A DNA stretch of 64,000 nt from Pelomonas aquatica. GTDB taxonomy: Bacteria; Pseudomonadota; Gammaproteobacteria; Burkholderiales; Burkholderiaceae_C. Where the stretch lies: NCBI RefSeq assembly GCF_026712205.1, contig NZ_JAPPUW010000010.1, positions 124,001-188,000 of the forward strand. The letters are read 5' to 3'. Numbering within the stretch: position 1 is the stretch's first letter; each line of letters begins with the position of its first letter. Of the stretch, positions 30,334-60,948 are shown piece by piece. The position numbers were made by a program, and so were the translations under genes. Below the pieces are notes generated by a model, which was given only the letters and a program-made list of their open reading frames with translations, was not told where the DNA came from and did no database searches.

Positions 30334-31632
30334 TCAGTTGCCGCCGCGCAGGTTCTGCACCTGGAAGAGCTTGGGCGGGTTCTGCTTCGCGTCCACCTGG
30401 CCCTTGAACTGCCCGGTCGTGCAGTGCTTGGACTGCACGTCGACCATCGAGAACGAGTCGTCGATCGCGATGCCCGTGCCCTTGTTGATCGGCAGGTGGG
30501 CGTCCGGGTGCGACTTGCCGATGGTCCAGCTCTTCCACAGCTCGCCCTTGCGGTCGTAGATCAGCGTGCGGTTGATGTTGTAGACCTGGGCGTCGATGTG
30601 GAAGACGCGCTTGCCGATCGGATGCGCGCCGTTGACGGGCTCGGCCTCCAGCACATAGACCTTGCGCAGCTGCCAGCTGATGTTCGGGAAGCAGCCGCCC
30701 TGGCCGCCGAAGTCGACGAACTTGTAGCCGTCGGCCTGCCTGAACTCGTCCGTCAGCGCCAGCTCGTTATGGTTGTAGTAGGGCATCAGGATGTTCTTCG
30801 TGCCCTTGTAGGTCCACTTCATGTCGGACACGCGGCCGTTGTAGCCCTCGAAGTCCTCGATCATCAGGTCGGAGCCGAGGAAGGCATCGGTCGCCTGGCC
30901 GGTGGCCAGGCGCCGCACGCGGCGCTGGAAGCCCAGGTAGAGGTAGGCGTCGTCGAACTTCAGGTCGTCGTCGTAGCGCTGGATCAGCAGCTGCGTGTTC
31001 TTCAGGTCCTGCGGCTCCTGCACCTGCACATAGATGCCGCGGAACAGCTCCGACGGATTGGGCGTGACCTCGGGCACCGGCGCGTCCTGCACGCGGTGGC
31101 GGAAGTTCAGGAAGTGGAAGTCGAACTTGATCGTGCGCTCGACCTGGCCGCTCGTCATGTTGCGGTACTTCCAATAGAAGGGATCGATGGCGGCGTTGTC
31201 GCCCCAGTTGATGCCGTACTTGAAGTTCCAGGCGATCTTCTCGCCGGCGCGCGGGTCGTCCAGCCGCGGCTCCTCGGGGAAGGGGCGGCCGGCCTCGAAG
31301 CCGCTGATCTCGCCGTTCTTCGCGCCCAGCTTGGTCTTGTTCAGGCCCTTGCGGGTGGCCTCGACATAGGCCTTGTTGAGCGGGAACTGCGTCGTCGGGC
31401 CGACCTTGATCTCGGTCCAGCCGCTCTTCACCGCCAGATACATGCCGGCGTCGAGGGCGTCCTTGAACTGCTCGACATTGGCCTTGCCGATGACGGTGCC
31501 GGCGCTCAGGCCGGGGAAGCTCGGCAGGCCGCCCTTGTAGGGATTGAACGAGGCCTCGACATCGGCCTCGGTGGCGGCCAGCGCGCCGGCCGCCAGGCCC
31601 GCGGCGGCAAGGGAAAGGGTCAGTCGCTTCAT
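30334..31632 (-). CDS. DUF1329 family envelope protein
   Basis: Protein of 432 residues with a signal peptide (MKRLTLSLAAAGLAAGALA-AT). DUF1329 features are NPYKGGLPSFPG near the N-terminus, WKYRNMTSGQVERT, MPYYNHNELALTDEFRQADGYKFVDFGG and RVFHIDAQVYNINRTLIYD. The fold is predicted to be LolA/LolB-like, able to bind lipids or other hydrophobic molecules. It lies 14 bp after the DUF1302 gene; the two are regular partners. As the last gene of a sigma54-promoted operon it probably handles a hydrophobic compound across the periplasm (inference). Confidence 0.88.
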   Translation of the reverse strand: MKRLTLSLAAAGLAAGALAATEADVEASFNPYKGGLPSFPGLSAGTVIGKANVEQFKDALDAGMYLAVKSGWTEIKVGPTTQFPLNKAYVEATRKGLNKTKLGAKNGEISGFEAGRPFPEEPRLDDPRAGEKIAWNFKYGINWGDNAAIDPFYWKYRNMTSGQVERTIKFDFHFLNFRHRVQDAPVPEVTPNPSELFRGIYVQVQEPQDLKNTQLLIQRYDDDLKFDDAYLYLGFQRRVRRLATGQATDAFLGSDLMIEDFEGYNGRVSDMKWTYKGTKNILMPYYNHNELALTDEFRQADGYKFVDFGGQGGCFPNISWQLRKVYVLEAEPVNGAHPIGKRVFHIDAQVYNINRTLIYDRKGELWKSWTIGKSHPDAHLPINKGTGIAIDDSFSMVDVQSKHCTTGQFKGQVDAKQNPPKLFQVQNLRGGN

Positions 31633-31646
31633 CGTGGTCTCCTGAT

Positions 31647-33698
31647 TCAGAACTGGTAGCGCGCAGTGAAATAGAGCTCGTTTTCCTTCCAGGCCGAGCC
31701 GATGGGGCCGGCGCGGAAGCGACCCAGCGGCTCCAGGCCGCCGAGGCCGCGCGAGTAGGCGCTCATCGGATCGGCGTCGCCGAAGGGCGCGGTGAACGGG
31801 CCCCAGGGGTTGCACGAGCGGCAGTCGTCGAACTTCCAGCGCTCGTCGTTGCTGCGTGCCTTGAAGTTGCCGCCGAAGCTCAGCTTGAACTTGTTGCTGA
31901 CCAGCCAGTCGAGCTGAGGCGACATCACGAGGGCGCGGGCGCGCACGTCGTAGGCCGTGATCAGCTGCGGGCTGACGCGGTCGCCGGCAAGGAAGGCCTT
32001 GATCAACAGCGTGCCGACGACGTTGTCCTTCCAGTCGGGCATGCCGACGGTGCCGAGGGCGGCCTGGCGCCGCTCGTGGTCGAAGATGTGCTGGTAGAAC
32101 AGCTGGGCCGAGATCAGCGTCGTGCGGTTGGGGTTGATGAAGGGGATGAAGGTCGGCCGGTCGATGCCGACCACCGAGCGCCAGACCTTGTTCTTCGAGT
32201 ACAGCTCGGGCCGCGCCGTGTTGGCGAACTCCTCGCCCTGGGTCAGCGCGCCCTCGACGCGCACGGCCGCCTTGGCCGCCTCCCACTGCAGGTCCAGCGA
32301 GCCGCCGATCAGGCTGACGCGCGGGTAGGCGACGTCGAAGGCGATCAGGAAGGGGCAGTGGCCGGTGCCGTCGTTGCAGGGCTGGCCGGTGAAGGCGTTC
32401 TGCGCCGCCTTGCCGCCGTGCAGCGAGGGCAGCTGCGAGCGGTAGCTCAGCGCGTTCAGCGAGAACGACACGCCGCCCTGGGTGACGCCCTCGTACTTGA
32501 CGCCGACCTGGGTGTTCTGCAGGTTCCACTTGGGCAGGTCGACGCTGCGGATGCCGATCTGGCCGGGCCCGAAGTCGGTGGACAGCAGCACGCCGGGGCC
32601 GACGTTGGCGAAGTTGGACACCGTGCCGCCGTTGTCCCACAGGTTCTTCATGCCGCGGAAGAAGCAGCCGGCGTCCAGGATGCTGTTGGCCGTGCCGCAT
32701 TGCCCGAGGTTGTTGGGCCGGAACTTGTCGACGTTCCAGATCAGCTGCAGGTTGCGGTCCTGCATGCTGTCGCTGGAGCCCATGCGCCATTCGGCCTGGG
32801 CGATCCACATCGGGATGCGGATGTCCTGCAGCTCGTCGTAGATGTTGTTGCGCGAGTAGTCGACCGGGTTGATGACGTCGAGCACGCGGAACAGGTCGGT
32901 GCGGCCCCAGACGACCTGCTGGCGGCCGAGCTTCAGGAACAGCTGCTGGCCGGCGTCCAGGTCGACGGACTTGGTCACATAGGCCTCGCGCAGCGCGTCG
33001 GCGCGGTTGTTGAACTCGGGGGCCTCGAGCTGGCTGCGCGTCTTGCTGCCATAACCGCCGAAGTCGACGCAGCCGCGTGAGTCGGTGTCGCAGGGGCGCA
33101 CCGGCACGCCGAACTCCACCCCGCCGCCCATCGTCGAATGCCAGCGGTCGCCCAGCAGGCGCAGGCCCTCGTTGGGGTTGTAGTTCGGCGCGGCCGGGTT
33201 GGTCGAATTGAAGCCGAAGGTGTTGGCCGTGAGGCCGAGGCCGGCGACGACGGCCTTGTTCACCGCACCGCCGCCCTGGGGCAGCGGCGGCGGCCCGCCG
33301 GTGGACTGCAGCAGCACGCCACCGCCGGCGCGCTTGCCGTACTGGTCGTCGTTGAGGCGGTAGACGCCGTCGAAGCTGCCGCGCAGGATGCCGTGGAAGG
33401 ACCAGCCGGCATCGAGCTTCTTGTCGGCCTCGACCTGCAGCGTGTTGCGGAACTTGGACAGGCCGACGCTCTGGCCGGTCGCGTCCCGGCCGCGCACGCG
33501 GGTGTCGTTCTCGTAATAGACGTCGACCTTCCAGGGACTGGGCCCCGACGGTGAGACGACGTCCAGGGTGTCGGCCTCGTGGCTCGCGTCGGCCTTCGAG
33601 GGGGCGGCAGGGGGCTGCTGTGCGGATGCCGGCCCGGCCAGGCCGGCCAGCAGGGTCAGCCCCAGCGGCCAGCGCCGCCACGGGTGGGTGCAGATCAT
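31647..33698 (-). CDS. DUF1302 family outer-membrane protein
   Basis: Protein of 683 residues: a signal peptide (LGLTLLAGLAGPASA-QQ) and beta-strand-rich sequence ending in an aromatic outer-membrane terminus (ENELYFTARYQF). Family blocks include LREAYVTKSVDLDAGQQLFL, LGRQQVVWGRTDLFRVLDVI and NPVDYSRNNIYDELQDIRIP. DUF1302 proteins are predicted beta-barrels. It starts after GAGGAGACATCG, 44 bp behind the MMPL/RND gene. It probably forms the outer-membrane part of a transport route shared with DUF1329 and the RND protein. Confidence 0.88.
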   Translation of the reverse strand: MICTHPWRRWPLGLTLLAGLAGPASAQQPPAAPSKADASHEADTLDVVSPSGPSPWKVDVYYENDTRVRGRDATGQSVGLSKFRNTLQVEADKKLDAGWSFHGILRGSFDGVYRLNDDQYGKRAGGGVLLQSTGGPPPLPQGGGAVNKAVVAGLGLTANTFGFNSTNPAAPNYNPNEGLRLLGDRWHSTMGGGVEFGVPVRPCDTDSRGCVDFGGYGSKTRSQLEAPEFNNRADALREAYVTKSVDLDAGQQLFLKLGRQQVVWGRTDLFRVLDVINPVDYSRNNIYDELQDIRIPMWIAQAEWRMGSSDSMQDRNLQLIWNVDKFRPNNLGQCGTANSILDAGCFFRGMKNLWDNGGTVSNFANVGPGVLLSTDFGPGQIGIRSVDLPKWNLQNTQVGVKYEGVTQGGVSFSLNALSYRSQLPSLHGGKAAQNAFTGQPCNDGTGHCPFLIAFDVAYPRVSLIGGSLDLQWEAAKAAVRVEGALTQGEEFANTARPELYSKNKVWRSVVGIDRPTFIPFINPNRTTLISAQLFYQHIFDHERRQAALGTVGMPDWKDNVVGTLLIKAFLAGDRVSPQLITAYDVRARALVMSPQLDWLVSNKFKLSFGGNFKARSNDERWKFDDCRSCNPWGPFTAPFGDADPMSAYSRGLGGLEPLGRFRAGPIGSAWKENELYFTARYQF

Positions 33699-33742
33699 CG
33701 ATGTCTCCTCGTTGTGGTGAGTGGTTCGGCGCCCTTTTCGGC

Positions 33743-36178
33743 CTAGGCGCTCGCTGCTGCGCGGGCCTCGGTGCGAGGCCTCGCGGTGCTGGGGTCGTCG
33801 TCGCTCACTGCGGCCGCATCCAGCGCGCCGGCGACGACGAAACGGGGCTTGAACACGACGCACCAGGCCGGCACGATCAGGATGGCCGCGATGGCGTTCA
33901 CGACCAGCATGAAGGACAGCAGGGCCGCGGCGTCGGACTGGAAGCGCAGGTCGCTGAGAAAGACCCACAGCACCACGCCCGCGGTCAGCGTCAGCGCCGT
34001 GAAGCTGACGGCATAGCCGGTGGTGCTGACCGCGTTGATCGCGGCCCGGCGCACGTCGCGCACATGCGGCATCTCCTCGCGGATGCGGTCCATGAAATAG
34101 ACCGCGTAGTCGATGCCCACGCCGACGCCGATCATGATGACCGGCACCGTGTTGACGCTGATGCTGATGCCCTTCCAGCCCATGTAGGCATAGGACAGCA
34201 CGGTCGCGAACAGCATCGGCAGCACCATCAGCCAGCCGGCGTGCACGGACTGGTAATAGGCCATCACGACGACGAAGGCCAGCGCCATGACCAGCGGCAC
34301 GAGCAGCAGGTGGTCGGCATGCAGGGCCTCGTTGGCCGCCGCCGTCACGCCGATGATGCCGCCGCCCGGCTCGAAGCTCAGGCCCGGCACGCCGGCCGTC
34401 ACGCGCGCGGCGGCCTCGTGGGCCAGGGCCAGCGCGCGGCTGATGGTCTCGGCCTGGCGGTCCTTGTAATAGAAGACCAGGTCGGCCTCGTTCTCGTCGG
34501 CGTTGACGAACTCCTTCAGCGCGCCGGGGATGGGGCTGGATGCGAGGTAGGCGAACATCAGCCCGCCGACCTCGTCGGCCGAGTCGGGCACCTGGGCCCA
34601 GCGCGGGTCGTCGTTGTGCGTCAGCCGGTTGACGACGCGCACGACCGCCGGCAGCGCCTTGGTGCCGCCGAGATTGGGGTCGGCCAGCATCTCGGCCTGG
34701 AAGGCCTCGATGGCCCGCAGCACCTCGGGCCGCTTGATGCCGCCCTTGTCGCTGGTGCTGGCGACGATGTGCAGTTCCTCCGAGCCCGGGAACAGCCGGT
34801 TGATGGCCTCGGTCGACTGGTTGTAGGCGTGGTCGCGGTGCAGGATGGGCGAGCCGGGCTCGGTCTCGCCGGTCTTCACGCGCGCGGCCAGCTGGCCGCC
34901 GGCCAGCATCAGCAGGCCGGCGACGAGCAGGATGGCCGTCGCGCCGCGCACCGTGCCGCCGCTGCGCGCCATCGCGGCACCGAGGAAGGCGCGCACCGCC
35001 TGGTTCTTGTTCGCGGTGGCGCGCGGCTCGGGCAGCACGGTCAGCGCCAGCGGCACCATGAAGTGCACGGTGAAGATCACCGAGAAGGCCCAGAAGCCCG
35101 CCGAGATGCCCAGCTTCCAGTTGAAGGGCGCGGCGCCGAGGATCATCACGCCGATGCCGATGGCGTCCACCGCGATGGCCAGCGAGCCGGGCCGGAACAG
35201 TGCCTCCAGCGCATTGCGCGCCGCGCGCCGGCCGCTGTGCGTGATCGCCAGCTCCTCGTAGTAGCGCGCCACCAGCTGCACGCCGTGCGACATCGCACGC
35301 GCCGCGATCAGGAAGGGGATGGGCATGGACAGCGGCTCCAGGTTGAAGCCCAGCCAGGACATGAAGCCCAGCCCCCAGATCGACGACAGCGCGATGCCCA
35401 GCAGCGGCAGGAAGACGCCGTAGAAGCGCCGGAAATAGGCGATCAGCAGCGCCGCCAGCAGGGCCAGCGTGTAGAACAGGATGGCGACGATCTGGTTCAG
35501 ATAGGTGTAGACATAGCCGGTCAGCACCGGGTTGCCGGTCAGGTGGATGTGGTGGCCCGGCGTCGCCAGCTCGGCCTTCAGCGCCTGCAGCGCGGCGAAG
35601 GTCTTGGCGTAGTCGATCTCGCCCTCGTTGAGCTGGGCCTTGATCAGCGCCGCCTTCAGGTCCGGCGAGACGAGCAGGCCGTAGACCTGCGGGTTGGCCA
35701 TCACCTTGCGGCGCAGCTCGTCGAGCTCCTCGCTCGTGTGGCGCGGCTGCTGCGGGTCGTAATAGGGCTCGGACGCGAAGCTGCCCTCCGCCGTCAGATG
35801 CACATGGCGGGCGGTGCGGTGCGTCAGGCTGGCCACCAGGTTGTGGTTGACGCCGGGCAGGCTGTCGACGCCCTGGGTCGCGCGCTGGATCAGCGCCAGC
35901 GTCGCGTCGTTGAAGAGCGTGCCCCGATCGACCTCGATCGCCATGACGATCTGGTTGGCGCCGCCGAAGTTCTCCTTGATGCGGTTGTAGGTCTGGATGT
36001 AGGGATGCTGCTGCGGCAGCAGGTCGCTGAAGTCGGTGTAGATGCGCAGCCCCGGCAGGCGCGTCGCGAAGGCGAGCGTGACGGCCAGGATCAGGCCCAG
36101 CACGATCTTCGGGTTGGCGAAGATCCATTCCTCGGCGCGCACCAGGGCGCGCAGCAGTTGGCGGGCGGCGGTCTTCAT
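33743..36178 (-). CDS. MMPL/RND-family exporter
   Basis: Protein of 811 residues with about 12 membrane helices in two blocks (for example VLGLILAVTLAFATRLPG, ILFYTLALLAALLIAYF, LSFMLVVNAIAAILIVPAW) and two periplasmic loops (YTDFSDLLPQQHPYIQTYNRI; the later HRDHAYNQSTEAINRLFPGSEELHI). This is the shorter MMPL/HpnN-like RND class that moves lipids or hydrophobic compounds, not the AcrB class. Its ATG overlaps the stop of the upstream Ycf48-like gene (ATGA). In this operon it is the energised transporter. Confidence 0.88.
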   Translation of the reverse strand: MKTAARQLLRALVRAEEWIFANPKIVLGLILAVTLAFATRLPGLRIYTDFSDLLPQQHPYIQTYNRIKENFGGANQIVMAIEVDRGTLFNDATLALIQRATQGVDSLPGVNHNLVASLTHRTARHVHLTAEGSFASEPYYDPQQPRHTSEELDELRRKVMANPQVYGLLVSPDLKAALIKAQLNEGEIDYAKTFAALQALKAELATPGHHIHLTGNPVLTGYVYTYLNQIVAILFYTLALLAALLIAYFRRFYGVFLPLLGIALSSIWGLGFMSWLGFNLEPLSMPIPFLIAARAMSHGVQLVARYYEELAITHSGRRAARNALEALFRPGSLAIAVDAIGIGVMILGAAPFNWKLGISAGFWAFSVIFTVHFMVPLALTVLPEPRATANKNQAVRAFLGAAMARSGGTVRGATAILLVAGLLMLAGGQLAARVKTGETEPGSPILHRDHAYNQSTEAINRLFPGSEELHIVASTSDKGGIKRPEVLRAIEAFQAEMLADPNLGGTKALPAVVRVVNRLTHNDDPRWAQVPDSADEVGGLMFAYLASSPIPGALKEFVNADENEADLVFYYKDRQAETISRALALAHEAAARVTAGVPGLSFEPGGGIIGVTAAANEALHADHLLLVPLVMALAFVVVMAYYQSVHAGWLMVLPMLFATVLSYAYMGWKGISISVNTVPVIMIGVGVGIDYAVYFMDRIREEMPHVRDVRRAAINAVSTTGYAVSFTALTLTAGVVLWVFLSDLRFQSDAAALLSFMLVVNAIAAILIVPAWCVVFKPRFVVAGALDAAAVSDDDPSTARPRTEARAAASA

Positions 36179-37179
36179 CGCGCTTCCTTGCTGTCGGTGG
36201 GGGCCTGCGCGACCTGGGTCGGCAGGTGGATGACGTTCAGCGCGCCGGCGGCGCCGGCGACCAGCATCGAGCGCGCGTCGAGGGCGACGCCGGCCGCCAG
36301 ATAGGCCGGGATGGCCTGGCCATGCTCGAAGGCCTGCCACTGCTCGCCCTGCAGCCTGACCATGCGGCCGCCGGCGCCCAGGCCGTAGAGCTCGTCGGCG
36401 ACGCGCAGCAGCGCATACATCGGCACGCCGGAGGGGTTGGCCTGGGTCGCCCAGGTGCGGCCGCCGTCGCGGGTGCGCTTGATGACGCCGGCCAGGCCCG
36501 AGACCCAGCCGTTGGCGGCGTCGGTGAACAGCGCCGCATAGGGATAGAAGTCGCCCTCGATCTTGGGCTGGGGCTGCCAGCTGGCGCCGCCGTCCGCGCT
36601 GGTCAGCACGGCGCCGAATTCGCCGGTGATGACGGCGCGCTTCTCGTCGACGAACTGCACGGTGGTCAGGATGGCGTCGTCGCCCAGGTCGCGGACCTGC
36701 CAGCTGCCGCCCTTGTCGGCGCTCGACAGGATGCTGGTGCGCGCGCCGACCGCCCACAGGCGGTTGCGCGGGTCGCAGGTCAGGGCCAGCAGGTCGCTGC
36801 GGGTCGGCAGCTGGCGCATCGCCCATTCGCCGCCGCCGGCCGCGAGCACCCAGACCTTCTTGTAGAAGTCCAGCGCCGCGAAGCTGCCGTCCGGGCAGGC
36901 CGCCACCGCCAGCACCGACGAGGGCTGGGCCAGCGCATGCCGCGCCCAGTGCGCGCCGCCGTCGGTCGAGGTCAGGATGACGCCGCCGGCCGCGCCGGCG
37001 ACGACGCGGCTGCCGTGGCTGGCCAGGGCCTGGAAGGTGTCGTAGCGCTGCACGGGCTTGCCGCGTTCGGCCTGCACGCCGGCCCAGTCGGGCGCAGGCA
37101 CGCAGCCCGTCAGCATGGTCAGTGAGGCGCACAGCCACGCGATGCGCGCGGCCCGCCCCCCCGTCGATCTCGGTCCCAT
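36175..37179 (-). CDS. Ycf48-like beta-propeller lipoprotein
   Basis: Protein of 334 residues with a lipobox (LCASLTMLTGC) and repeated BNR/sialidase-type units: ILTSTDGGAHWARHAL, SILSSADKGGSWQVRDLG, AVLTSADGGASWQPQPKI and IKRTRDGGRTWATQ. This matches the Ycf48/HCF136 propeller family. In photosynthetic organisms the family assists photosystem II; heterotrophs carry it beside RND/DUF1302/DUF1329 genes, where it presumably assembles or scaffolds the transporter. It is first in the operon, about 100 nt behind the predicted sigma54 start. Confidence 0.85.
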   Translation of the reverse strand: MGPRSTGGRAARIAWLCASLTMLTGCVPAPDWAGVQAERGKPVQRYDTFQALASHGSRVVAGAAGGVILTSTDGGAHWARHALAQPSSVLAVAACPDGSFAALDFYKKVWVLAAGGGEWAMRQLPTRSDLLALTCDPRNRLWAVGARTSILSSADKGGSWQVRDLGDDAILTTVQFVDEKRAVITGEFGAVLTSADGGASWQPQPKIEGDFYPYAALFTDAANGWVSGLAGVIKRTRDGGRTWATQANPSGVPMYALLRVADELYGLGAGGRMVRLQGEQWQAFEHGQAIPAYLAAGVALDARSMLVAGAAGALNVIHLPTQVAQAPTDSKEAR

Positions 37180-37291
37180 CGTTGTCCCCTCTGCGCGGGC
37201 ACGGCGGCGGCCGGCCCGGGGTGGCGCTTGGCGCCACGCTTGTCCATTTCGTCAACCTGCGGGCGCCGTCTTCCGCGCCCACCAGGAAAGG

Positions 37292-37307
37292 GGCAAAGCC
37301 CATGCCA
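37292..37307 (-). promoter_or_regulatory. sigma54 (-24/-12) promoter of the DUF1302/DUF1329/RND operon
   Basis: On the minus strand TGGCAT-N5-TTGCC gives the GG-N10-GC signature. It lies 112 bp upstream of the Ycf48-like gene. An IHF site 8 bp away and the activator site 79 bp away have exactly the same spacing as at the phenol hydroxylase promoter (52883-53012). Confidence 0.82.
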
Positions 37308-37314
37308 GCGCCGC

Positions 37315-37327
37315 CAAGTGCTTGATT
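37315..37327 (-). promoter_or_regulatory. IHF site
   Basis: AATCAAGCACTTG on the minus strand fits the IHF consensus WATCAANNNNTTR fully. It lies between the sigma54 element and the upstream activator site, where a bend would bring activator and polymerase together, as known for DmpR/XylR promoters. Confidence 0.72.
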
Positions 37328-37382
37328 CGTATCGACCCGGCCTCGCGGCCCGCGCCGCCCCCCGGGGACTCCCGCATACCGA

Positions 37383-37424
37383 CCTGAGCATTTGCTGCAC
37401 TGCCGCTTGATCAAATGGTGAGGT
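37383..37424 (-). promoter_or_regulatory. DmpR-type upstream activating sequence
   Basis: The 36-bp core 37386-37421 is identical at 30 of 36 positions to 52977-53012 upstream of dmpK. It contains TTGCTGCAC and the palindrome TTGATCAA (37407-37414). Flanking arms CCTGAGCATTTG and CAAATGGTGAGG form an imperfect inverted repeat, as expected for the dimer sites of DmpR/XylR-class activators. Confidence 0.8.
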
Positions 37425-37437
37425 CAGCCCCTCGCCC

Positions 37438-37600
37438 GGTCTTGCGGCGCAGTACGCGCGCAAGACCAGTCTGGGACCGCGCAGCGGCCTGAGCCGCAGC
37501 GCTTCGCCAGGCTCACCGCGCCCACCGGGCGCGCTGTGTCCGGGCTCAGCCCCCGAGGGGACGGCGATGCTTGCGGGCCGGCTTGGGGCGGCCCGGCGCC
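37438..37600 (+). repeat. intergenic repeat element, copy 3, with hairpins
   Basis: It begins with a 9-bp stem GGTCTTGCG/CGCAAGACC (37438-37467). From 37501 it carries the repeat family: GCTTCGCCAGGC, a private hairpin CGCGCCC-ACC-GGGCGCG (37517-37533), GTGTCCGGGCTCAGCCCC, GAGGGGACGGCGATGCTTGC and GGGCCGGCTTGGGGCGGCCC. The first half matches 7501-7583 (reverse) and the second half matches 1-92. It separates the phenol operon's 3' end from the activator site of the DUF operon. Confidence 0.62.
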
Positions 37601-37643
37601 GGTCCGCGGCTTCATGCGGCGCGGGTGTGGGAAGCTGAAAGCA

Positions 37644-37682
37644 GCAGGCCCGCCGGCTGCGCGAGGCAGCGGGCGGGCCTGC
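37644..37682 (-). terminator. terminator of the phenol/meta operon
   Basis: GCAGGCCCGCCGGCTGC, loop GCGAG, GCAGCGGGCGGGCCTGC: a 17-bp stem with one mismatch, starting 24 bp beyond the dmpI stop. A short T-rich tail (TGCTTTC on the minus strand) follows. Confidence 0.75.
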
Positions 37683-37705
37683 AGGGGCCGCTGGAATGGC
37701 GGGAA

Positions 37706-37897
37706 CTAGCGGCCGAGATCCTGGGCGCTGACGCCGGCGATGCCCCAGTTCTCCTTGGGCACCTCGGTGATCCAGACGCGCACGTTCTCCTTGGGCGCGC
37801 CGACCGCCTCGGTCAGCGCCTGCGTGACCTTCTCGATCACGGCGCGTTTCTGCTCGGTCGTGCGACCTTCGATCATGTAGATCTGGGCAAAGGGCAT
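37706..37897 (-). CDS. dmpI: 4-oxalocrotonate tautomerase
   Basis: Protein of 63 residues including Met1; after its removal Pro1 is the general base (MPFAQIYMIEGRTTEQKRAV). Conserved RVWITEVPKENWGIAG near the C-terminus carries the active-site Arg and the Trp/Phe-type pocket. It converts 2-hydroxymuconate to 2-oxo-3-hexenedioate in the oxalocrotonate branch of the meta pathway, upstream of DmpH. It is the last gene of the operon and is followed by a strong hairpin terminator. Confidence 0.93.
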   Translation of the reverse strand: MPFAQIYMIEGRTTEQKRAVIEKVTQALTEAVGAPKENVRVWITEVPKENWGIAGVSAQDLGR

Positions 37898-37922
37898 GGG
37901 AGTCTCCTTGGGGGTGCGCGCC

Positions 37923-38963
37923 TCAGGCGGCCGCCTTCTGGGGGGCCGCGGCGCGCGTGCGCGCCAGCGTCATCGCGGTGTCCTCGATCATGTCCTCCTG
38001 GCCGCCGACCATGCCGCGGCGGCCCATCTCCACGAGGATGTCGCGCGCCGGCACGCCGTATTTCTGCTCGGCGCGCTTGGCGAACAGCAGGAAGCTGCCG
38101 TAGACGCCGGCATAGCCCAGCGTCAGCGCGTCGCGGTCGATGCGGATGGGGAAGTCCATGATGGGCACGACCAGGTCCTCGGCCACGTCCTGGATCCTGA
38201 ACACGTCCACGCCGGTCGTGATGGCCATCAGGTCGCAGACCGCCACCAGCACCTCCATCGGCGTGTTGCCGGCGCCGGCGCCCAGGCCCGCCGCCGCCGC
38301 GTCGATGCGGTTGGCGCCGGCCTCGATGGCGGCGATGGAGTTGGCCACGCCCATGGCGAGGTTGTGGTGGCCGTGGAAGCCCAGCTCGGTCTCGGGCCGG
38401 AGCGCCGCGCGCACCGCGCCGACGCGGGCCTTGACCGTCTCGGGCAGCAGGTGGCCGGCCGAGTCGGTCACGTAGATGCAGTTGGCGCCATAGCTCTCCA
38501 TCAGCTTGGCCTGCTTGACCAGGCCCTCGGGGCTGTTCATGTGGGCCATCATCAGGAAGCCGACCGTGTCCATGCCGAGCTTGCGCGCATGGCTGATGTG
38601 CTGCTCGCTGACATCGGCCTCGGTGCAGTGCGTGGCCACGCGGATGGTGTGCACGCCCAGCTCGTGGGCCATCTGCAGGTGGTCGACGGTGCCGATGCCC
38701 GGCAGCAGCAGGGCCGACACCTTGGCCTGCTTCATCAGCGGGATGACGGCGCCCAGGTACTCCTCGTCGGTGTGGGCCGGGAAGCCGTAGTTGACGCTGC
38801 TGCCGCCCAGGCCGTCGCCGTGCGTGACCTCGATCAGCGGGATGCCGGCGGCGTCCAGGCCGCAGGCGATGGTTTCCATCTGCTCCAGGCTCATCAGGTG
38901 GCGCTTCGGGTGCATGCCGTCGCGCAGCGTCATGTCGTGCAGGGTGATTTTCTTGTCGCTCAT
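37923..38963 (-). CDS. dmpG: 4-hydroxy-2-oxovalerate aldolase
   Basis: Protein of 346 residues. The HMG-CoA-lyase-like TIM barrel carries the metal and active-site blocks [44 protein letters not shown] and [15 protein letters not shown]. It cleaves 4-hydroxy-2-oxovalerate to pyruvate and acetaldehyde and channels the aldehyde to DmpF, whose gene is 11 bp upstream. It starts at ATG 38963. Confidence 0.96.
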
Positions 38964-39923: not shown

Positions 39924-40766
39924 TCAGGCGCCATCCCCTTCGGCGAGGAAGTCGGCGACCAGGCAGTTGAAGCGGGCGGCATGTTCGATCTGCGTCCAGT
40001 GGCCGCAGTGGCCGAACACATGCAGCTGGCTGTTCGGGATCCAGTCGGCCAGCGTCAGCGAGGTGGCCAGCGGGATGATTCGGTCCTCGCGGCCATGCAG
40101 CACCAGGGTCTCGTGCGGCACCGCGCGGATCGCGGCCTCGGGGCTGGCCATCGCGTCCACCCAGCGCTGGCGGGGCGCCGGGAACATGGCGGCGAAGGCC
40201 TCCTGGTAGCCCGGCTGGATGCTGGCCTCGTAGCGCAGCCGGGCCAGTTCGTCGTTGACGCGCGAGCGGTCGTGGGCGAACAGGTCCAGCAGGCTGCGCA
40301 TGGTGGCGATCGAGGGCTGGTAGCCCCAGACGGCATCCAGGCCCGGCGTGATGGCGAAGGGCACGCCGACGCTGCCCATCAGCACCAGGCGGCGCACGCG
40401 CTGCGGCGCGCGCAGGGTCAGCGCCAGGGCCAGGGCTCCGCCGAAGGAGTTGCCGACCAGGTCGACCTGCGGCAGATCGAGCGCGTCGAGCAGGTCCAGC
40501 GCCTGCTGCACCCAGCCGTCCATCGTGTAGCGGACGCCAGCCGGGCGCTCGGTGTCGCCGAAGCCGGCCAGGTCGGGCGCCAGCACCCGCCGCTGCTGCG
40601 ACAGCACGGGCAGGGACAGCCGCCAGTTGGCCCAGGCGCTGACGCCGGGGCCCGAACCGTGCAGCATCAGCAGCGGCGGCTGGCCGGGCCGGCCGCTGCC
40701 GAGGTCGTGACAGAGGGTCTGGAAGGCGCCGGTGGCGATGCGGTGGGGTGTGGACAGGTTACTCAT
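39924..40766 (-). CDS. dmpD: 2-hydroxymuconic semialdehyde hydrolase
   Basis: Protein of 280 residues, alpha/beta hydrolase with [15 protein letters not shown] (oxyanion), nucleophile [14 protein letters not shown], and late Asp/His in [11 protein letters not shown] and [11 protein letters not shown]. It hydrolyses the meta ring-fission product (or its methyl ketone analogues) to 2-hydroxypenta-2,4-dienoate plus formate or a carboxylic acid. Its ATG overlaps the stop of the FGE gene by 4 bp (ATGA), tying the sulfatase-activating gene into the operon. Confidence 0.9.
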
Positions 40767-41836
40767 TGCGTAGCGTTCATGACGGTGCGAAACCCGATGT
40801 GCGAGGTGCCCAGGCCGGGCTCCGCGGGCTGCCGGGCCGAGGGGCGGTAGCGCATGCAGTAGTTCGGCGAGCACAGGTGCGAGCCGCCCTTGATCACGCG
40901 TGCCGGGCCGGTGGCGCCGCGGCGCGGGTCCACGCCCTCGACGGCATCCGGCCCGTTGGGGTTGAGCTCGACGCCGGCGATATGCCGCGGCCTGTACACC
41001 GTCCGCGTCCATTGCCAGACATTGCCGGCCATGTCGTACAGGCCGAAGGCGTTGGCGGGAAAACAGCCCACCGGCGAGGTGCCGGCATAGCCGTCGCTGC
41101 CCTCGTCGACCAGCGGAAACGGTCCCTGCCAGGTGTTGGCCATCGGCTTGCCCTCGGGCATGAAACGATCGCCCCACGCATAGGGCTTGGCCAGCAGGGC
41201 GCCGCGGGCGGCGTACTCCCATTGCGCCTCGGTGGGCAGCTCGCGCCCGAGCCAGTGGGCATAGGCCAGTGCATCCTCGTAGGCGATCTGCACGACGGGG
41301 TGGTTGGCCTGAGCCTCGATGTCGCTGGACGGGCCGAGCGGATGGCGCCAGTTGGCACCGGGCATGAAGCGCCATTCGCCGGCATGCCCCTGTTGCGGCC
41401 GCACGAAGACGGCCGACCCGGGCACCCGTTGCGCGGGCGGCAGTCGTTGCGCCTCATGCGCTGCCGGTGCGCGCTCGGCCACGGTGACATAGCCGGTGGC
41501 GGCGACGAAGCGGGCGAACTGCGCATTGGTCACGTCGGTGCGGTCGATCCAGAAGCCGCCGACCTGCACCTCGTGCTGCACGGCTTCCTCGGCGTAGTGG
41601 TCGTTGTCCCCCATCTGGAAGCGCCCTCCCGGCACGCTCACCATGCCGGCGTGAGGCCCGTTGCCATCGGGCAACCCGCCATAGCGGCCGCACAGGCCGT
41701 CGTCGGCCGGCGTGGCGGCCTGGGTTCCCGCTTCCCACAGGAGGCCGCCGAGCCAGAGCGCCAGCGCGCACAGGCTCAGCATCGGCAGGGCCTGCCGGGC
41801 TGTGCGTCGAATGAAGGGCATGCGAAGACTCGGCAT
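40763..41836 (-). CDS. formylglycine-generating enzyme (sulfatase-activating), exported
   Basis: Protein of 357 residues. An N-terminal hydrophobic segment (LPMLSLCALALWLGGLLWEA) marks export or membrane anchoring. The FGE-sulfatase domain runs from VSVPGGRFQMGDNDHYAEE through LPTEAQWEYAARGALLAKPYAWG to the end. Both copper/thiol active-site cysteines are present as Cys322 and Cys327 in GGSHLCSPNYCMRYRPSAR, the spacing of aerobic FGE. It would convert Cys98 of the adjacent sulfatase to formylglycine. It lies 18 bp after the sulfatase gene and overlaps dmpD, so all three are co-translated or coupled. Other SUMF1-fold proteins lack these cysteines. Confidence 0.9.
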   Translation of the reverse strand: MPSLRMPFIRRTARQALPMLSLCALALWLGGLLWEAGTQAATPADDGLCGRYGGLPDGNGPHAGMVSVPGGRFQMGDNDHYAEEAVQHEVQVGGFWIDRTDVTNAQFARFVAATGYVTVAERAPAAHEAQRLPPAQRVPGSAVFVRPQQGHAGEWRFMPGANWRHPLGPSSDIEAQANHPVVQIAYEDALAYAHWLGRELPTEAQWEYAARGALLAKPYAWGDRFMPEGKPMANTWQGPFPLVDEGSDGYAGTSPVGCFPANAFGLYDMAGNVWQWTRTVYRPRHIAGVELNPNGPDAVEGVDPRRGATGPARVIKGGSHLCSPNYCMRYRPSARQPAEPGLGTSHIGFRTVMNATQ

Positions 41837-41854: not shown

Positions 41855-43666
41855 CTATCGGGCCTTCGGCTTCATGACCGCCTCGATGGCAAGGTCCTCG
41901 TAGTACCGCGCCGCATTGCTGTAGCCCGGTCGGTCGGCCAGGCCGGGGATTTCGATCACGCCGTTCTCGGCGACGTAGCGCTTCCAGTCCTCCACCAGTT
42001 CGGCGAGCTTGGCCGGCCGGCGGTCGGCCAGGTCCTGCAGTTCGGTGCGGTCATTGGCCAGGTCGTAAAGCTCCCAGCGGCCCTTGCCCCAGGGCTGGTT
42101 GGCATAGACGATCTTCCAGTCGCCCTTGCGCAGTGCCTTGCGGCCGCCGAGTTCCCAGCCGATGGCGTCGTTCGGTCCATAGGCCGATGCCTGCTGGCCA
42201 CGCAGATAGGCCACCAGCGAGCGGCCCTTGACCGGCAGGATCTCCCTGCCGCCGTTGTTGGAAGGCCCGGGATGAGGAGCGCCCGCCAGTTCGTACAGCG
42301 TCGGGGCGATGTCCATCACATGCCCGAAGCCCTTGCGCTGGCCCTTGACCAGGCCCGCGCCCGGCGCCCAGACGATGGCCGGCACGCTGATGCCGCCTTC
42401 GTACATAAAGGACTTGTACATGGTCAGCGGAGTCATCCCAACCTGCGCCCAGCCCGGGCCGTACTCGATGAACGAGCCAGGCCTGCCCATGTTGTCGATC
42501 GAGTTGTCCTTGTCGTGGTGGATCCATTCGCGGGTCCGGCCCACGTCGTAGACGGAATTGCCGTCGGCACCGTTGTCGGACAGGAAGATCACCACCGTGT
42601 TGTCGAGTTCGCCGCTGCCTTCGAGGTGCTGGAGCAGGCGGCCGATCTGGCGGTCCATGTGGTCGACCATCGCGGCATAGACCGCCATGCGGCGCTCCTC
42701 GGAACGCTTCTCGACCGGGCTGAGTGCGTCCCACTTGGGCCAGACCCGGTTGCCTTCGTAGAGCCCTGAATTCGCCGGCAGGAGGCCGAGTTTCTTCATA
42801 CGCTCGAAGCGCTGCTCACGGATGCGGTCGTAGCCTCCGGCGTAGTGCGAGGCGTACTTGGCCACGTCGGCATCCGGCGCCTGCAACGGCCAGTGCGGTG
42901 CGGTGTAGGCCAGGTAGGCGAAGAAGGGCTTGCTGCCATCACCCCGGGTTTCTTCGAGGTAGTCGATGATGCGCGAGGTGAAGGCGTCGGTTGAATAGAA
43001 GCCCTCGCGGGGAATCTGGATCGACTTGCCGTTCTCGCGATAGATCGCCACGGGTGGCTTCTGCGGGTCCAGGGCCACGATGCCGGACTGGTCGCCATAG
43101 TGGCTGGCGCCGCCCATCGTCATCGCATAGGAGCGGTCGAAGCCGCGCGCGGCAGGGCTCTGGTCTTCGGTGTTGCCCAGGTGCCATTTGCCCGCCATCA
43201 CCGTGCGGTAGCCCGCGTCGTGCAGCACCTCGGGCAGCGCCTTCACGCGCCGGTTGAGGAAGCCTTCGTAGCCCGGCTTGCCGCGCTGCTCGGCGGTGAT
43301 CAGCTCGGCCATGTCGCCCAGCCCGGCCAGGTGGTTGTCGGTGCCCGACATCAGCATCGCACGCGTGGGCGAGCAGAACGGCGAGGCATGGAAGTTGGTC
43401 AGCTGCACGCCGTCGGCAGCCAGCCGGTCCAGGGTCGGCGTGGAGATCTCGCCGCCGAAAGCGCCCAGATCGGCGTAGCCCAGGTCGTCCGCCACGATCA
43501 ACAGGATGTTGGGGCGCTTGGCCGTGCCGGCTTGGGCGGCAGTCTGCGGGGCCGCAGAGCTGGCGCAGGGGCCCAGTGCGGCCCACGCGACGCTGCCGAT
43601 CATCAGCGCGGCGCGCAGCCGGGCGCGCACCGTGGCAGCGGGCCTGGGGATGCAAGCGGATTTCAT
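41855..43666 (-). CDS. arylsulfatase (type I, AtsA-like), exported
   Basis: Protein of 603 residues: a signal region (RLRAALMIGSVAWAALGPCASSAA), metal-binding ILLIVADDLGYADLGAFGGE (Asp60/61), formylglycine motif Cys98-Ser-Pro-Thr-Arg102 in ASPFCSPTRAML, TVMAGKWHLGNTEDQSP and VVIFLSDNGADGNS. The overall layout closely resembles Pseudomonas AtsA arylsulfatase, with an extra signal peptide. It would release sulfate and a phenol from aryl sulfates in the periplasm. It lies between dmpH and the FGE gene, 25 and 18 bp apart, within the phenol operon. Alkyl or carbohydrate sulfate substrates cannot be excluded. Confidence 0.9.
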   Translation of the reverse strand: MKSACIPRPAATVRARLRAALMIGSVAWAALGPCASSAAPQTAAQAGTAKRPNILLIVADDLGYADLGAFGGEISTPTLDRLAADGVQLTNFHASPFCSPTRAMLMSGTDNHLAGLGDMAELITAEQRGKPGYEGFLNRRVKALPEVLHDAGYRTVMAGKWHLGNTEDQSPAARGFDRSYAMTMGGASHYGDQSGIVALDPQKPPVAIYRENGKSIQIPREGFYSTDAFTSRIIDYLEETRGDGSKPFFAYLAYTAPHWPLQAPDADVAKYASHYAGGYDRIREQRFERMKKLGLLPANSGLYEGNRVWPKWDALSPVEKRSEERRMAVYAAMVDHMDRQIGRLLQHLEGSGELDNTVVIFLSDNGADGNSVYDVGRTREWIHHDKDNSIDNMGRPGSFIEYGPGWAQVGMTPLTMYKSFMYEGGISVPAIVWAPGAGLVKGQRKGFGHVMDIAPTLYELAGAPHPGPSNNGGREILPVKGRSLVAYLRGQQASAYGPNDAIGWELGGRKALRKGDWKIVYANQPWGKGRWELYDLANDRTELQDLADRRPAKLAELVEDWKRYVAENGVIEIPGLADRPGYSNAARYYEDLAIEAVMKPKAR

Positions 43667-43691
43667 GGGCGATGCCTCGTCGTTGTCTGGC

Positions 43692-44480
43692 TCAGGCGAA
43701 GCGCATCGACACCGTGCCCAGGTCCTGGAAGCGCACCGCCACCTGGTCGCCGGCCTGCACGGCGATGGCCTCCGTGACACCGCCGGTCATGATGAAGCTG
43801 CCGGCCGGGATCTCCTGGCCGCGTGCGCCCAGGTGGTTGGCCAGCATGGCCACGGCGGCGGCCGGGTGGCCCAGCACGGCGGCGCCCGCGGCCATGGCGA
43901 CGATGCGGCCGTTCTTCTCCATCACGACGCCAAGCGTGCGCAGGTCCAGCCCCTCGACGTTGCGTGGCCGGCCGCCGACGACGAAGCGGGCGGCCGAGGT
44001 GTTGTCGGCGATCACGCTCTTGAGGTCGAACCTGAAGTCGCGGTAGCGGCTGTCGATGATCTCGACGCCGGGCAGCACGAAGTCGATGGCCGCCAGCACG
44101 GCGCCCACATGGCAGCCGGGGCCGCGCAGCGGCGCCTTGGTGACGATGCAGATCTCGGCCTCGACCTTGGGGTGGATGAGCCTGGCGGTGTCGATGTCGC
44201 TGCCTTCGGCGCAGCTCATGTAGTCGCTGACGAAGCCGAAGCAGGGCACCTCGACGCCCATCTGCTTCATCTTGGCGCGCGAGGTCAGGCCGCACTTCAG
44301 GCCCACGGTCTTGTGGCCGCGGGCCTCCTTGCGGGCACGGATGGCGTCCTGGATGGCGTAGGCGTCGTCCCAGCTCATGGCCGGGTATTCGTCGGTGATC
44401 TTGGTGATGTCGCGTGCGTTCAGCTCGGCCGCTTCGACGTGCTCGGCGAGCTGGGCGATGGTGGCTGCGTCAAGTGCCAT
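43692..44480 (-). CDS. dmpH: 4-oxalocrotonate decarboxylase
   Basis: Protein of 262 residues of the hydratase/decarboxylase family. GLKCGLTSRAKMKQMGVEVPCFGF, IHPKVEAEICIVTKAPLRGPGC, VEIIDSRYRDFRFDLKSVIADNTSAARFV and LGVVMEKNGRIV align with DmpH rather than DmpE. It decarboxylates 2-oxo-3-hexenedioate to 2-hydroxypentadienoate in complex with DmpE, whose gene is 10 bp upstream. In Pseudomonas dmp operons H stands near the end, so its place directly behind E is a rearranged order. Confidence 0.92.
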   Translation of the reverse strand: MALDAATIAQLAEHVEAAELNARDITKITDEYPAMSWDDAYAIQDAIRARKEARGHKTVGLKCGLTSRAKMKQMGVEVPCFGFVSDYMSCAEGSDIDTARLIHPKVEAEICIVTKAPLRGPGCHVGAVLAAIDFVLPGVEIIDSRYRDFRFDLKSVIADNTSAARFVVGGRPRNVEGLDLRTLGVVMEKNGRIVAMAAGAAVLGHPAAAVAMLANHLGARGQEIPAGSFIMTGGVTEAIAVQAGDQVAVRFQDLGTVSMRFA

Positions 44481-52551: not shown

Positions 52552-52830
52552 TCAGTGGTCCAGGCCCGGCTCGCCGTAGCGCCACTTCATGCGCTCGTAG
52601 TCGAGTCGGGCGCCCTCGTCGGCGCTGAGATGGGTGACGCCGTGGGTGGCGCAGAACTGGCTGAACTGCTCGAAGCTCAGCACCAGCTCGACGGCCAGCT
52701 CGGGGTCGCCGATGGCGAACTCGAACTCCACGAAGCGGGCGTCGCGCGTGCCGGTCACGCGCACATAGCAGGGCTGGCCGGTCAGGTCGGCCGCCGAGGC
52801 GGAGCGTGGGTTGGCGGGGCGCGGGCTCAC
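52552..52830 (-). CDS. dmpK: phenol hydroxylase assembly subunit P0
   Basis: Protein of 92 residues. CYVRVTGTRDARFVEFEFAIGDP and LSFEQFSQFCATHGVTHLSADE fit the DmpK family, which assists iron incorporation or assembly of the oxygenase. The start is GTG 52830; an in-frame stop lies just upstream and no internal ATG suits. It is the first gene of the operon, about 40 nt behind the predicted sigma54 start site. Confidence 0.92.
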   Translation of the reverse strand: MSPRPANPRSASAADLTGQPCYVRVTGTRDARFVEFEFAIGDPELAVELVLSFEQFSQFCATHGVTHLSADEGARLDYERMKWRYGEPGLDH

Positions 52831-52882: not shown

Positions 52883-52898
52883 CGCAACCGGCGTGCCA
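52883..52898 (-). promoter_or_regulatory. sigma54 (-24/-12) promoter of the phenol hydroxylase operon
   Basis: TGGCAC-N5-TTGCG on the minus strand, a full GG-N10-GC element close to the TGGCACN5TTGCW consensus, 53 bp upstream of the dmpK start. Confidence 0.88.
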
Positions 52899-52905
52899 GC
52901 CCGGC

Positions 52906-52918
52906 TAAGTGATTGATT
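52906..52918 (-). promoter_or_regulatory. IHF site
   Basis: AATCAATCACTTA on the minus strand is a full match to WATCAANNNNTTR, 8 bp from the sigma54 element, the same spacing as at 37315-37327. Confidence 0.75.
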
Positions 52919-52973
52919 TGCCTGGCCCCGAGGGGCTTGACGGCCCGGAACCCGGGGAAGTCCCGGATGCCCA

Positions 52974-53014
52974 GTCGATCAGTTGCTGCACCGCAGCTTG
53001 ATGAAATGATGAAG
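52974..53014 (-). promoter_or_regulatory. DmpR-type upstream activating sequence
   Basis: The core 52977-53012 contains GTTGCTGCACCGCAGCTTGA followed by TGAAATGATGA, matching 37386-37421 at 30 of 36 positions and starting 79 bp from the -24 element in both promoters. The activator gene starts 1.8 kb further upstream. The rest of the 52831-53152 gap holds only promoter parts and the inverted repeat at 53049. Confidence 0.82.
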
Positions 53015-53048: not shown

Positions 53049-53153
53049 ATACGGGTTTGCAATCGAAGTGATCACAAGGCGCGAAGCCGCAGACAGTGCT
53101 TGAGCACGGCAAGGCGAAGCAACGCAGTGAGCGCTTTGATTGCGAAGCCGTAT
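53049..53153. repeat. long hairpin, 'AAGGCGCGAAG' family member B
   Basis: Arms 53049-53075 and 53127-53153 pair at 22 of 27 positions (ATACGG...GCAATC...AAG.G..CAC). The inside carries AAGGCGCGAAGCCGCAG, an apex CAGTGCTTGAGCAC and GCAACGC, landmarks shared with 17347-17402. It touches the stop codon of the regulator gene and probably terminates it. Confidence 0.65.
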
Positions 53154-54805
53154 CAGGCGGCCGGCAGGCCTTCCTTCTTGAGCCGGTAGGCCAGCTGCGG
53201 CCGCGTGATGCCGAGCAGGCGCGCGGCCTGGGACAGATTGCCCTTGGCGCGCTGCATGGCCATCTGCATCAGCCGCTGTTCGAGCGAGGCCATGTCGATC
53301 TTCTGCTGCAGCACCTGGTCGCACAGGCCGTCGAGCTCGGCCGCCTCGCCGCTGCCCACATGGCCCAGCGCATCGAGCTGCTGGTCGGGCTTCAGCCCTG
53401 CCCCCTTGCTCCACAGGTGCACGGATTCGATGGCGCCGCCTTCGGGCGCCAGCAGCACGGCGCGCTCGATCGCGTTCTCCAGCTCGCGGATATTGCCCGG
53501 CCAGGGCTGGTTCAGCACGTCGCGCATCGCCCGGTCGGTCAGCCCGCTGAGCTTCTTGCCGTAAAGGGCGCTGTACTTCTCGAGGAAGCGGTTCACCAGC
53601 GGCGGGATGTCGGCCGTGCGCTCGCGCAGCGGCGGGATCGTGATCGGGAAGGTGTTGAGGCGGTAAAACAGGTCGCTGCGGAACTTGCCGGCCTGCATGG
53701 CCTGCTGCAGGTCCACATTGGTGGCGGCGACGATGCGCACGTTCAGCTTGATCGGCTGCTCGGCGCCCAGGCGCTCGATCTCGCCGGTCTGCAGCACGCG
53801 CAGCAGCTTGACCTGCGTGGCCAGCGGCAGGTCGCCGGCCTCGTCGAGGAAGAGGGTGCCGTTGTTGGCCCGCTCGAAGCGCCCTGCCCGGGCCATGTGG
53901 GCCCCCGTGTAGGCGCCCTTCTCGACGCCGAACAGCTCGGCCTCGATGAGGTCGGCCGGGATGGCGGCGCAGTTGACGGCGATGAAGGGGCCGGCGGCCC
54001 GCGGGCCGTTGTCGTGCAGCCAGCGTGCGAACACCTCCTTGCCGACGCCGGTCTCGCCCAGCAGCAGCGCGGTGATGGCGCTCGGCGCGGCGCGCTTGAG
54101 CAGATCGAAGGCGGCCCGGAACCCCGGGGACACGCCGACGAGGCTGGTGTCGTACTCGCGGCGCGGCTGCACGGCGCGCAGGTGTTCGAGCCCGATGTTG
54201 TAGTCGATCAGCCGCTCGCCGATGCGCTGGGGCCGGAAGTAGTCGACGTACTCGTCGTCACGCCAGTCCTCGGCCGGCTGGCCGACGATGCGGCACTGGC
54301 TGTCGCCCATGCTGTGGCATTCGGTCTCCTTGAAGACGATCAGCCGGCCGAAGAAGGCGCTGGTGTAGCCCGAGGCGTAGCCGATCTGCTGCCAGCACTG
54401 CGGGTCGTCGCCGTAGCCCATGTCCGTCACGTGCGCATCGCACTCCCAGGAGTTGGTCCAGAGGAACTCGCCGAAGAAGTGCTTGGTCTTGAGGTCCAGC
54501 TCCATATAGACCTTCTCCACCTGCACCGCGCCCTCGATGGTGTGCAGCTGCGGCCCCAGCATGAAAGCCTCCTCGCAAGGCATGCCGGCGCGCATTTCCC
54601 TGAGGGCCAGCTCGCCATCGCGCTGGCCCGAGGCAAAGCCCATGCGCACCAGCAGGCCGCGCGCCCGCGCCACACCCAGGGAATCGAACAACTCCCGGCG
54701 CAACCCGGCCAAGGCTCGCGTATGCAACAGCATCATGCGGTGTTCGTTCAGCCAGATATGGCCCGAACCCGCATTGAAGCGGAGCATGGACAACAGTTCG
54801 CCCAC
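53153..54805 (-). CDS. dmpR: phenol-responsive sigma54 activator (DmpR/MopR/PoxR family)
   Basis: Protein of 550 residues: a XylR_N sensory domain, V4R, a linker, an AAA+ domain (GETGVGKE 250-257, sigma54 loop GAYTGA 297-302) and a Fis-type HTH (GNLSQAARLLGITRPQLAYRLKK). Aligned to MopR with an offset of 18, the zinc ligands C155/E178/C181/C189 appear as Cys137/Glu160/Cys163/Cys171, and the phenol-pocket residues H106/W134 as His88/Trp116, so direct phenol sensing is expected. GTG 54805 follows GGAGA; the N-terminus is about 18 residues shorter than MopR. It should bind 52974-53014 and 37383-37424. Confidence 0.94.
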   Translation of the reverse strand: MGELLSMLRFNAGSGHIWLNEHRMMLLHTRALAGLRRELFDSLGVARARGLLVRMGFASGQRDGELALREMRAGMPCEEAFMLGPQLHTIEGAVQVEKVYMELDLKTKHFFGEFLWTNSWECDAHVTDMGYGDDPQCWQQIGYASGYTSAFFGRLIVFKETECHSMGDSQCRIVGQPAEDWRDDEYVDYFRPQRIGERLIDYNIGLEHLRAVQPRREYDTSLVGVSPGFRAAFDLLKRAAPSAITALLLGETGVGKEVFARWLHDNGPRAAGPFIAVNCAAIPADLIEAELFGVEKGAYTGAHMARAGRFERANNGTLFLDEAGDLPLATQVKLLRVLQTGEIERLGAEQPIKLNVRIVAATNVDLQQAMQAGKFRSDLFYRLNTFPITIPPLRERTADIPPLVNRFLEKYSALYGKKLSGLTDRAMRDVLNQPWPGNIRELENAIERAVLLAPEGGAIESVHLWSKGAGLKPDQQLDALGHVGSGEAAELDGLCDQVLQQKIDMASLEQRLMQMAMQRAKGNLSQAARLLGITRPQLAYRLKKEGLPAA

Positions 54806-57918: not shown

Positions 57919-57926
57919 GGCCGACC

Positions 57927-58934: not shown

Positions 58935-58948
58935 GGCGAGGCTCCGGC

Positions 58949-59440: not shown

Positions 59441-59450
59441 CGGGGTCTCC

Positions 59451-60857: not shown

Positions 60858-60948
60858 GGGCGTCTCCGGGTTGTGCGCGCAGGGCTCCGCTCGCCCGGCC
60901 GGTCGCGCCGGTGGGCTGGAGCTGCAGCGTTCGTGGGGCGGTGCCGGG

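Follow-up and report, generated by a model that had tools for sequence, protein, structure and literature searches.

The four-gene operon at 30334-37179 of the 64-kb stretch of DNA analysed here (the window) is an AmeABCD-like RND cassette beside a phenol-degradation cluster, and the best explanation of the evidence as a whole is that this ame-like operon is, with high probability, a second target of DmpR-type promoter control besides the phenol hydroxylase genes. Judging from the sequence, the operon is likely to be induced by phenol via DmpR and sigma54, and since a second copy of the phenol-responsive promoter stands in front of it, the pump is probably produced while the cell consumes phenol. 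A single phenol sensor would then govern, by way of near-twin promoters, both degradation and an envelope transporter that is poorly understood. A link between phenol and such pumps was already suspected in related bacteria, and the present operon is a clear new example of it.

Twin promoters in the window

The promoters of the ame-like operon and of dmpK are built from the following elements:

37307-37292, minus strand: sigma54 -24/-12 element TGGCATGGGCTTTGCC of the ame-like operon promoter
37327-37315, minus strand: IHF site AATCAAGCACTTG of the ame-like operon promoter
37360-37377, minus strand: fourth conserved block with the core AT-N-CGGG-N4-CCC, a candidate for a second activator site
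37385-37421, minus strand: upstream activating sequence (UAS), imperfect inverted repeat CATTTG...CAAATG, candidate DmpR site
52883-53012, minus strand: whole dmpK promoter
52898-52883, minus strand: sigma54 element TGGCACGCCGGTTGCG of the dmpK promoter
52918-52906, minus strand: IHF site AATCAATCACTTA of the dmpK promoter
52951-52968, minus strand: fourth block of the dmpK promoter
52977-53012, minus strand: UAS of the dmpK promoter

The strings used for matching were the IHF consensus WATCAANNNNTTR and the sigma54 consensus. In the ame-like promoter, the -24/-12 element fits TGGC-N7-TTGC, the IHF consensus sits between the UAS and -24, and the UAS, an inverted repeat, lies 109 bp upstream, within the ~100-200 bp of XylR/DmpR-type promoters. 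The first-pass annotation had described three parts that recur in the same geometry at both sites, and the parts and their spacing do match: the UAS blocks are identical at 30 of 36 positions, exactly as claimed, for 37386-37421 versus 52977-53012, and the IHF consensus is perfect at both promoters, which hold the only two strict WATCAANNNNTTR matches in the window. Over 133 bp, the two promoters are identical at 87 positions (ungapped). The fourth block (37360-37377 and 52951-52968) is an additional element beyond those three parts. Its centre lies about 34.5 bp from that of the UAS, and XylR/DmpR-type regulators are reported to occupy paired palindromic sites whose centres are spaced by 29-42 nt (PMC6449761; this paper and the others cited by PMC number were available in part). 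Given this distance, the block may be a second activator site, although its sequence is unlike that of the UAS.

Specificity of the composite promoter

Within the window, each UAS finds only its twin at 22/36 or more. With up to 3 mismatches allowed, a 28-mer of the UAS is found at two sites in the 5.12-Mb genome (reversed-pattern control 0), and at 8 places in 6 genomes among 399 sampled genomes of the family (control 0). At all 8 places, a -24/-12 element that scores 14.0 or more of 15.2 is preceded by the IHF site at 19-20 bp and by the UAS at 108-109 bp. The composite pattern, which comprises the columns conserved in the promoter alignment with the left UAS arm left out, matches 11 places in 8 of the 399 genomes (control 0), a count that measures specificity and is no independent discovery, because several of these places were among the sequences from which the pattern was derived. 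Seven of the places precede dmpK, three the ame-like operon and one dmpF-dmpG. At 12 dmpK-promoter loci of relatives, some of which are one genome counted twice, the elements have this same geometry (IHF 20 bp, UAS 108-109 bp). Chance similarity of the two promoters was rejected on the basis of the genome-wide and 399-genome searches, in which the controls were 0.

The four-gene operon

The operon consists of four genes:

36175-37179, minus strand: Ycf48-like BNR protein, AmeC-type
33743-36178, minus strand: MMPL/HAE3-type RND transporter, AmeD-type (PF03176, 9.6e-27)
31647-33698, minus strand: DUF1302 protein, AmeA-type (PF06980, 5.3e-49)
30334-31632, minus strand: DUF1329 LolA-like protein, AmeB-type (PF07044, 3.4e-79; PF17131, 9.1e-17)

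DUF1302, DUF1329, COG4447/Ycf48-like and HAE3-like RND genes thus stand together, as in AmeABCD. The HAE3 label denotes resemblance, since the RND protein matches TIGR00921 (HAE3) at 1.2e-42 with 146 bits, below the curated NCBIfam cut-off of 351.9. The Ycf48-like protein has an LTGC near its N-terminus, which we take to be a lipobox-like motif. In the literature, AmeA-type (DUF1302) proteins are assigned to the outer membrane and AmeB-type (DUF1329) proteins to the periplasm.

The cassette counts given here and below refer to the best 80 of 89 places with relatives of the RND protein. In all 80, the Ycf48-like match precedes the RND match. DUF1302 was matched in 77 of them (missing in L018, L064 and L078) and DUF1329 in 76 (missing in the same three and in L058); all four of these loci end shortly downstream. 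Two further RND/Ycf48-like loci with DUF1329 nearby are present in the window's own genome (L189 on G000:C26 and L190 on G000:C15), and those stretches contain no -24/-12 element at 13.2 or more.

The regulator

The putative regulator is encoded next to dmpK:

53153-54805, minus strand: DmpR/CapR-type phenol-sensing sigma54 activator with XylR_N, V4R, AAA+ and Fis HTH domains
52552-52830, minus strand: dmpK, phenol hydroxylase subunit (PF06099, 4.8e-18)

The genome search found no XylR_N protein besides this DmpR, which matches CapR (6iy8) over residues 3-459 at 1.7e-141, and also the sensor domains of MopR (5kbe) and of the phenol-degradative gene regulator 5fru, presumably PoxR. In the alignment with CapR, the DmpR residues H88, W116, C137, E160, C163 and C171 are matched by identical ones, and we take them to be the pocket and zinc residues for phenol sensing.

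Relatives that carry the promoter

Among the cassette loci, 73 extend at least 400 bp upstream of the start estimated for the Ycf48-like gene, the other 7 of the 80 being shorter. Of the 73, four (L009, L010, L011 and L087) have a -24/-12 element with a score of at least 14.0 within 450 bp, and the best score in the remaining ones is 12.5. L009 and L011 have the same element as the window, scoring 14.0 of 15.2, L010 and L087 keep TGGC-N7-TTGC, and all four loci also carry the UAS and IHF sites. With L009 and L011 identical over the promoter, these loci and the window provide four distinct ame promoter sequences. An own DmpR-type promoter is limited to loci of Roseateles and Aquariibacter (4/73 plus the window).

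The window is assigned to Roseateles because the regulator of G238, a genome of its genus, occupies the same contig and place as that of the R. puraquae genome of L011. Some Ycf48-like match is present in 14 of 20 genomes of the genus, at 86% identity or more in only 4; the next match by E-value is partial, at 41%. These 4 are the genomes of the window and of L009, L010 and L011, the last three having been matched by contig and position, and in 4/4 the close Ycf48-like gene and the composite occur together. The window's genome (G000) and G238 contain two composites each; G421 and G418, judged by contig and position, are the counterparts of the L009 and L010 genomes. In Aquariibacter, a single contig carries both composites, some 14 kb from each other, in G185, which was assigned to the same species as G410 on the basis of a regulator at the same place. 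In G320, a composite stands before dmpF-dmpG (L155 6267-6390; G320:C7 from 80266), and this assembly, rated 100% complete, yielded neither an XylR_N protein nor a DmpR match at 1e-120, so that the composite alone is no proof of DmpR control.

Around relatives of DmpR (30 loci in 16 genomes, L095-L124, with 1.5-kb flanks), the composite is present at 8 loci (L095-L102), whose regulators are 73-97% identical, and was not found, at the thresholds applied, in the 1.5-kb flanks of the other 22 (L103-L124), whose regulators have 66% identity or less. This distribution indicates that this exact promoter type belongs to near relatives only.

One XylR_N protein each was found in 10 of the 20 genus genomes. 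Besides the four genomes described above, this leaves six, of which G156, G030, G366 and G423 (L183-L186) were compared, G425 being split over contigs and G426 left out. In those four, the XylR_N regulator lies ~4.7-6.5 kb from a distant DUF1329/Ycf48/RND set, mostly at 25-30% identity. A -24/-12 element adjoins the regulator on the strand of the operon; its score is 14.7 in G030, G366 and G423 and 13.5 in G156. In none of the four does an IHF match within 200 bp reach 12/13.

Position behind dmpI

Upstream of the ame-like promoter lie two further features:

37706-37897, minus strand: dmpI, 63 aa, just upstream of the promoter region
37644-37682, minus strand: 17-bp hairpin (94% complementary) closely following dmpI; it resembles a terminator, but its T run is weak

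The 63-aa protein is presumably DmpI, a 4-oxalocrotonate tautomerase. The cassette follows dmpI on the same strand within 700 bp in 57 of the 80 loci (the best 80 of 89); the remaining loci have other dmp genes or none upstream, or end early. This placement ties DUF1302 and DUF1329 to aromatic catabolism beyond one genome, and at these 57 loci the cassette, standing at the tail of the meta operon, probably shares the transcript of that operon.

Where the promoter is present, in the window and at the four loci, dmpI and the Ycf48-like gene are 330-532 bp apart; in 53 others among the best 80 of 89, the gap measures 53-279 bp (median 128). All five promoter-bearing gaps contain, within 48 nt, a hairpin of -32.9 to -40.3 kcal/mol; in the non-promoter gaps the median is -25.0 kcal/mol, with some reaching -37.3. 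The terminator scan did not call the hairpin at 37644-37682, and no sigma70-like site was called in 37150-38000. One suggestion would be that the hairpin insulates the ame promoter from the meta operon. Given the weak T run and the hairpins in non-promoter gaps, read-through from that operon could nevertheless occur.

Conservation and origin of the promoters

The alignment comprises 18 promoters (15 distinct sequences) over 126 columns, 43 of which are invariant in all 18, the core of the fourth block included. Between the window and the other Roseateles ame promoters, the four elements are identical at 78-79 of 80 positions, the spacer at 33-43 of 46 and the upstream flank at 9-10 of 23; among themselves, the distinct Roseateles ame promoters share 77-79 of the 80 element positions. 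The corresponding values for the window and the Aquariibacter ame promoter are 65/80 for the elements, 14/46 for the spacer and 6/24 for the flank, with only 9 of 16 bases shared in the -24/-12 element. The IHF site is identical at 13/13 positions in the five ame promoters compared.

A recent copying of the window's own dmpK promoter was rejected as the origin, because the window's ame promoter matches the Roseateles ame promoters at 112-121 of 126 positions and its own dmpK promoter at 83. Four columns set all five ame rows apart from most dmpK rows. The window's ame promoter shares 88/126 positions with the Aquariibacter dmpK promoter versus 79/126 with the Aquariibacter ame promoter. In the promoter tree, the Roseateles ame group has a support of 0.976, and the Aquariibacter ame promoter groups with the G320 dmpFG promoter at 0.658, the joint node having 0.690. 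The ame promoters of Roseateles and Aquariibacter may have a single origin.

Proposed mechanism and alternatives

Starting from the observed elements, spacing, conservation, gene order and single XylR_N protein, we propose the following model. A tetrapartite AmeABCD-like RND envelope transporter would travel with catechol meta-cleavage operons and, in this Roseateles, would be encoded by an operon with its own 130-bp DmpR-type promoter. Phenol-bound DmpR would bind the UAS at ~37385-37421, and perhaps also the block at 37360-37377; IHF would bend the DNA at 37315-37327, and sigma54-RNA polymerase would start from 37292-37307. Phenol hydroxylase and transporter would thereby be switched on together, and the transporter would most likely clear phenol-type or other hydrophobic compounds from the envelope. 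The regulatory part of this model is well supported by sequence because the geometry is that of the dmpK promoters of near relatives, the elements are conserved in Roseateles and in part in Aquariibacter, and a single XylR_N protein was found. Two named strains, Roseateles puraquae CCUG 52769 and R. saccharophilus DSM 654, offer a clean case in which it can be tested.

The operon might instead owe most of its expression to read-through from the dmp meta-cleavage operon, with the DmpR-type promoter acting only as a booster. This is likely in most relatives, in view of the cassettes that follow dmpI on the same strand, 53 of 57 of which (among the best 80 of 89 loci) have no -24/-12 element above 12.5 within 450 bp and have the short gaps described above. 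For the window, we regard it as conceivable but not probable, as the promoter-bearing gaps are long and contain a strong hairpin, and the promoter elements stay conserved. That conservation also bears on whether the composite could be a relic of promoter duplication that no longer works, as the G320 composite with no detected XylR_N protein might suggest: the near-identity of the elements among the Roseateles ame promoters, as opposed to the more divergent spacer and flank, together with the DmpR encoded nearby, makes this highly improbable, even slightly more so than control by a sigma54 activator other than DmpR. In favour of the latter are 4 to 26 DmpR matches in each of the 16 related genomes (a count that covers those genomes and not that of the window), many of them to the AAA+ part only. 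However, the ame and dmpK promoters alone in the genome have the UAS in common, and the genome has one detected XylR_N protein, so that a different activator appears very unlikely.

As for the function of the cassette, uptake or the traffic of lipids or hydrophobic compounds, rather than efflux, seems unlikely to us, given that the cassette of the same families in Castellaniella is reported to lower Nile Red accumulation and to raise monoterpene tolerance (PMC6394551). Returning to the phenol-responsive efflux operon that we favour, a wider reading can be offered as a tentative proposal, to which we give somewhat less than even weight: the RND/DUF1302/DUF1329/Ycf48 conduit would be a standard module at the tail of meta-cleavage operons in Betaproteobacteria and some others, which in Roseateles and Aquariibacter would have been uncoupled from those operons and placed under a copied 130-bp phenol promoter of four elements, the fourth of which would serve as a second, distinct activator site.

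Relation to known systems

The first-pass annotation had read the operon as induced by phenol through the regulator at 53153-54805, and had seen in this a concrete job context for two domains of unknown function. Our analysis lends support to sigma54/DmpR control and co-expression with phenol hydroxylase; the job context, on the other hand, was anticipated by PMC6449761, PMC6394551 and PMC7012976, as far as their available text goes. Suvorova and Gelfand (2019; PMC6449761) predicted COG4447, COG1033, PF07044 and DUF1302 genes to be members of AphS/AphR/AphT regulons, possibly coping with toxic aromatics, with AphR control predicted in Burkholderia sp. 383 and AphT/AphS control in D. aromatica. 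The AphR (XylR/DmpR-type) regulon of Betaproteobacteria thus includes the same four families in other species, but the available text on it contains neither a dmpK/aphK promoter twin with four shared elements nor the position at the tail behind dmpI. The promoter twin itself was not seen in print, which is weak evidence, the partly available literature covered lying mostly outside subscription journals and supplements.

In Castellaniella defragrans, a DUF1302/DUF1329/COG4447/HAE3 cassette is reported to export hydrophobic compounds and to confer monoterpene tolerance; cells lacking ameABCD tolerated monoterpenes less well and, when treated with CCCP, accumulated more Nile Red (PMC6394551). AmeABCD has the same four families and stands beside catabolic genes, a likeness by family and not by direct sequence comparison; its substrates are monoterpenes, and its gene order is A(DUF1302)-B(DUF1329)-C(COG4447)-D(RND), unlike the C-D-A-B found here. 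In Aromatoleum aromaticum EbN1, EtpR is needed for transcripts of a catabolic cluster and of the adjacent putative solvent efflux cluster (PMC4630880). As a predicted sigma54-dependent NtrC-type regulator over both clusters, EtpR resembles the role proposed for DmpR; the system differs in responding to p-ethylphenol and in being anaerobic, and the likeness is one of regulation, not of the protein families of ebA326-ebA335. Putative UASs for an XylR/DmpR-type regulator have been described upstream of phenol hydroxylase genes (PMC3063778), where the likeness to our promoters, shared by the mphK, mopK, dmp and xyl upper promoters, lies in the UAS; here, a second target operon is present in the same genome, and, unlike the ame-like promoter, mphK has no IHF consensus reported in the available text. 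In Zoogloea oleivorans, the listed genes of the phenol hydroxylase cluster include DUF1302 and DUF1329 (PMC7012976); DUF1302/DUF1329 genes are also reported to be needed on Tween20 (PMC10866462), and the proteins occur in Delftia nanopods and in P. aeruginosa, with no phenol link in the available text (PMC3110197, PMC7145413, PMC7603352).

Neighbouring genes

Between dmpH and dmpF, the meta-cleavage run also encodes an FGE-like protein (40763-41836) and a sulfatase (41855-43780) that contains a CSPTR motif; neither has a match in L009-L011. A sulfatase relative precedes the cassette in L013. Aryl sulfate esters possibly feed phenol into the pathway. Upstream of dmpR, a cluster resembling the benzoate/catechol ortho pathway (57139-63353) encodes ring-hydroxylating dioxygenase subunits, a reductase, an SDR, a catechol dioxygenase and an MLE-type enzyme, and is accompanied by an MFS transporter at 55747-57090.
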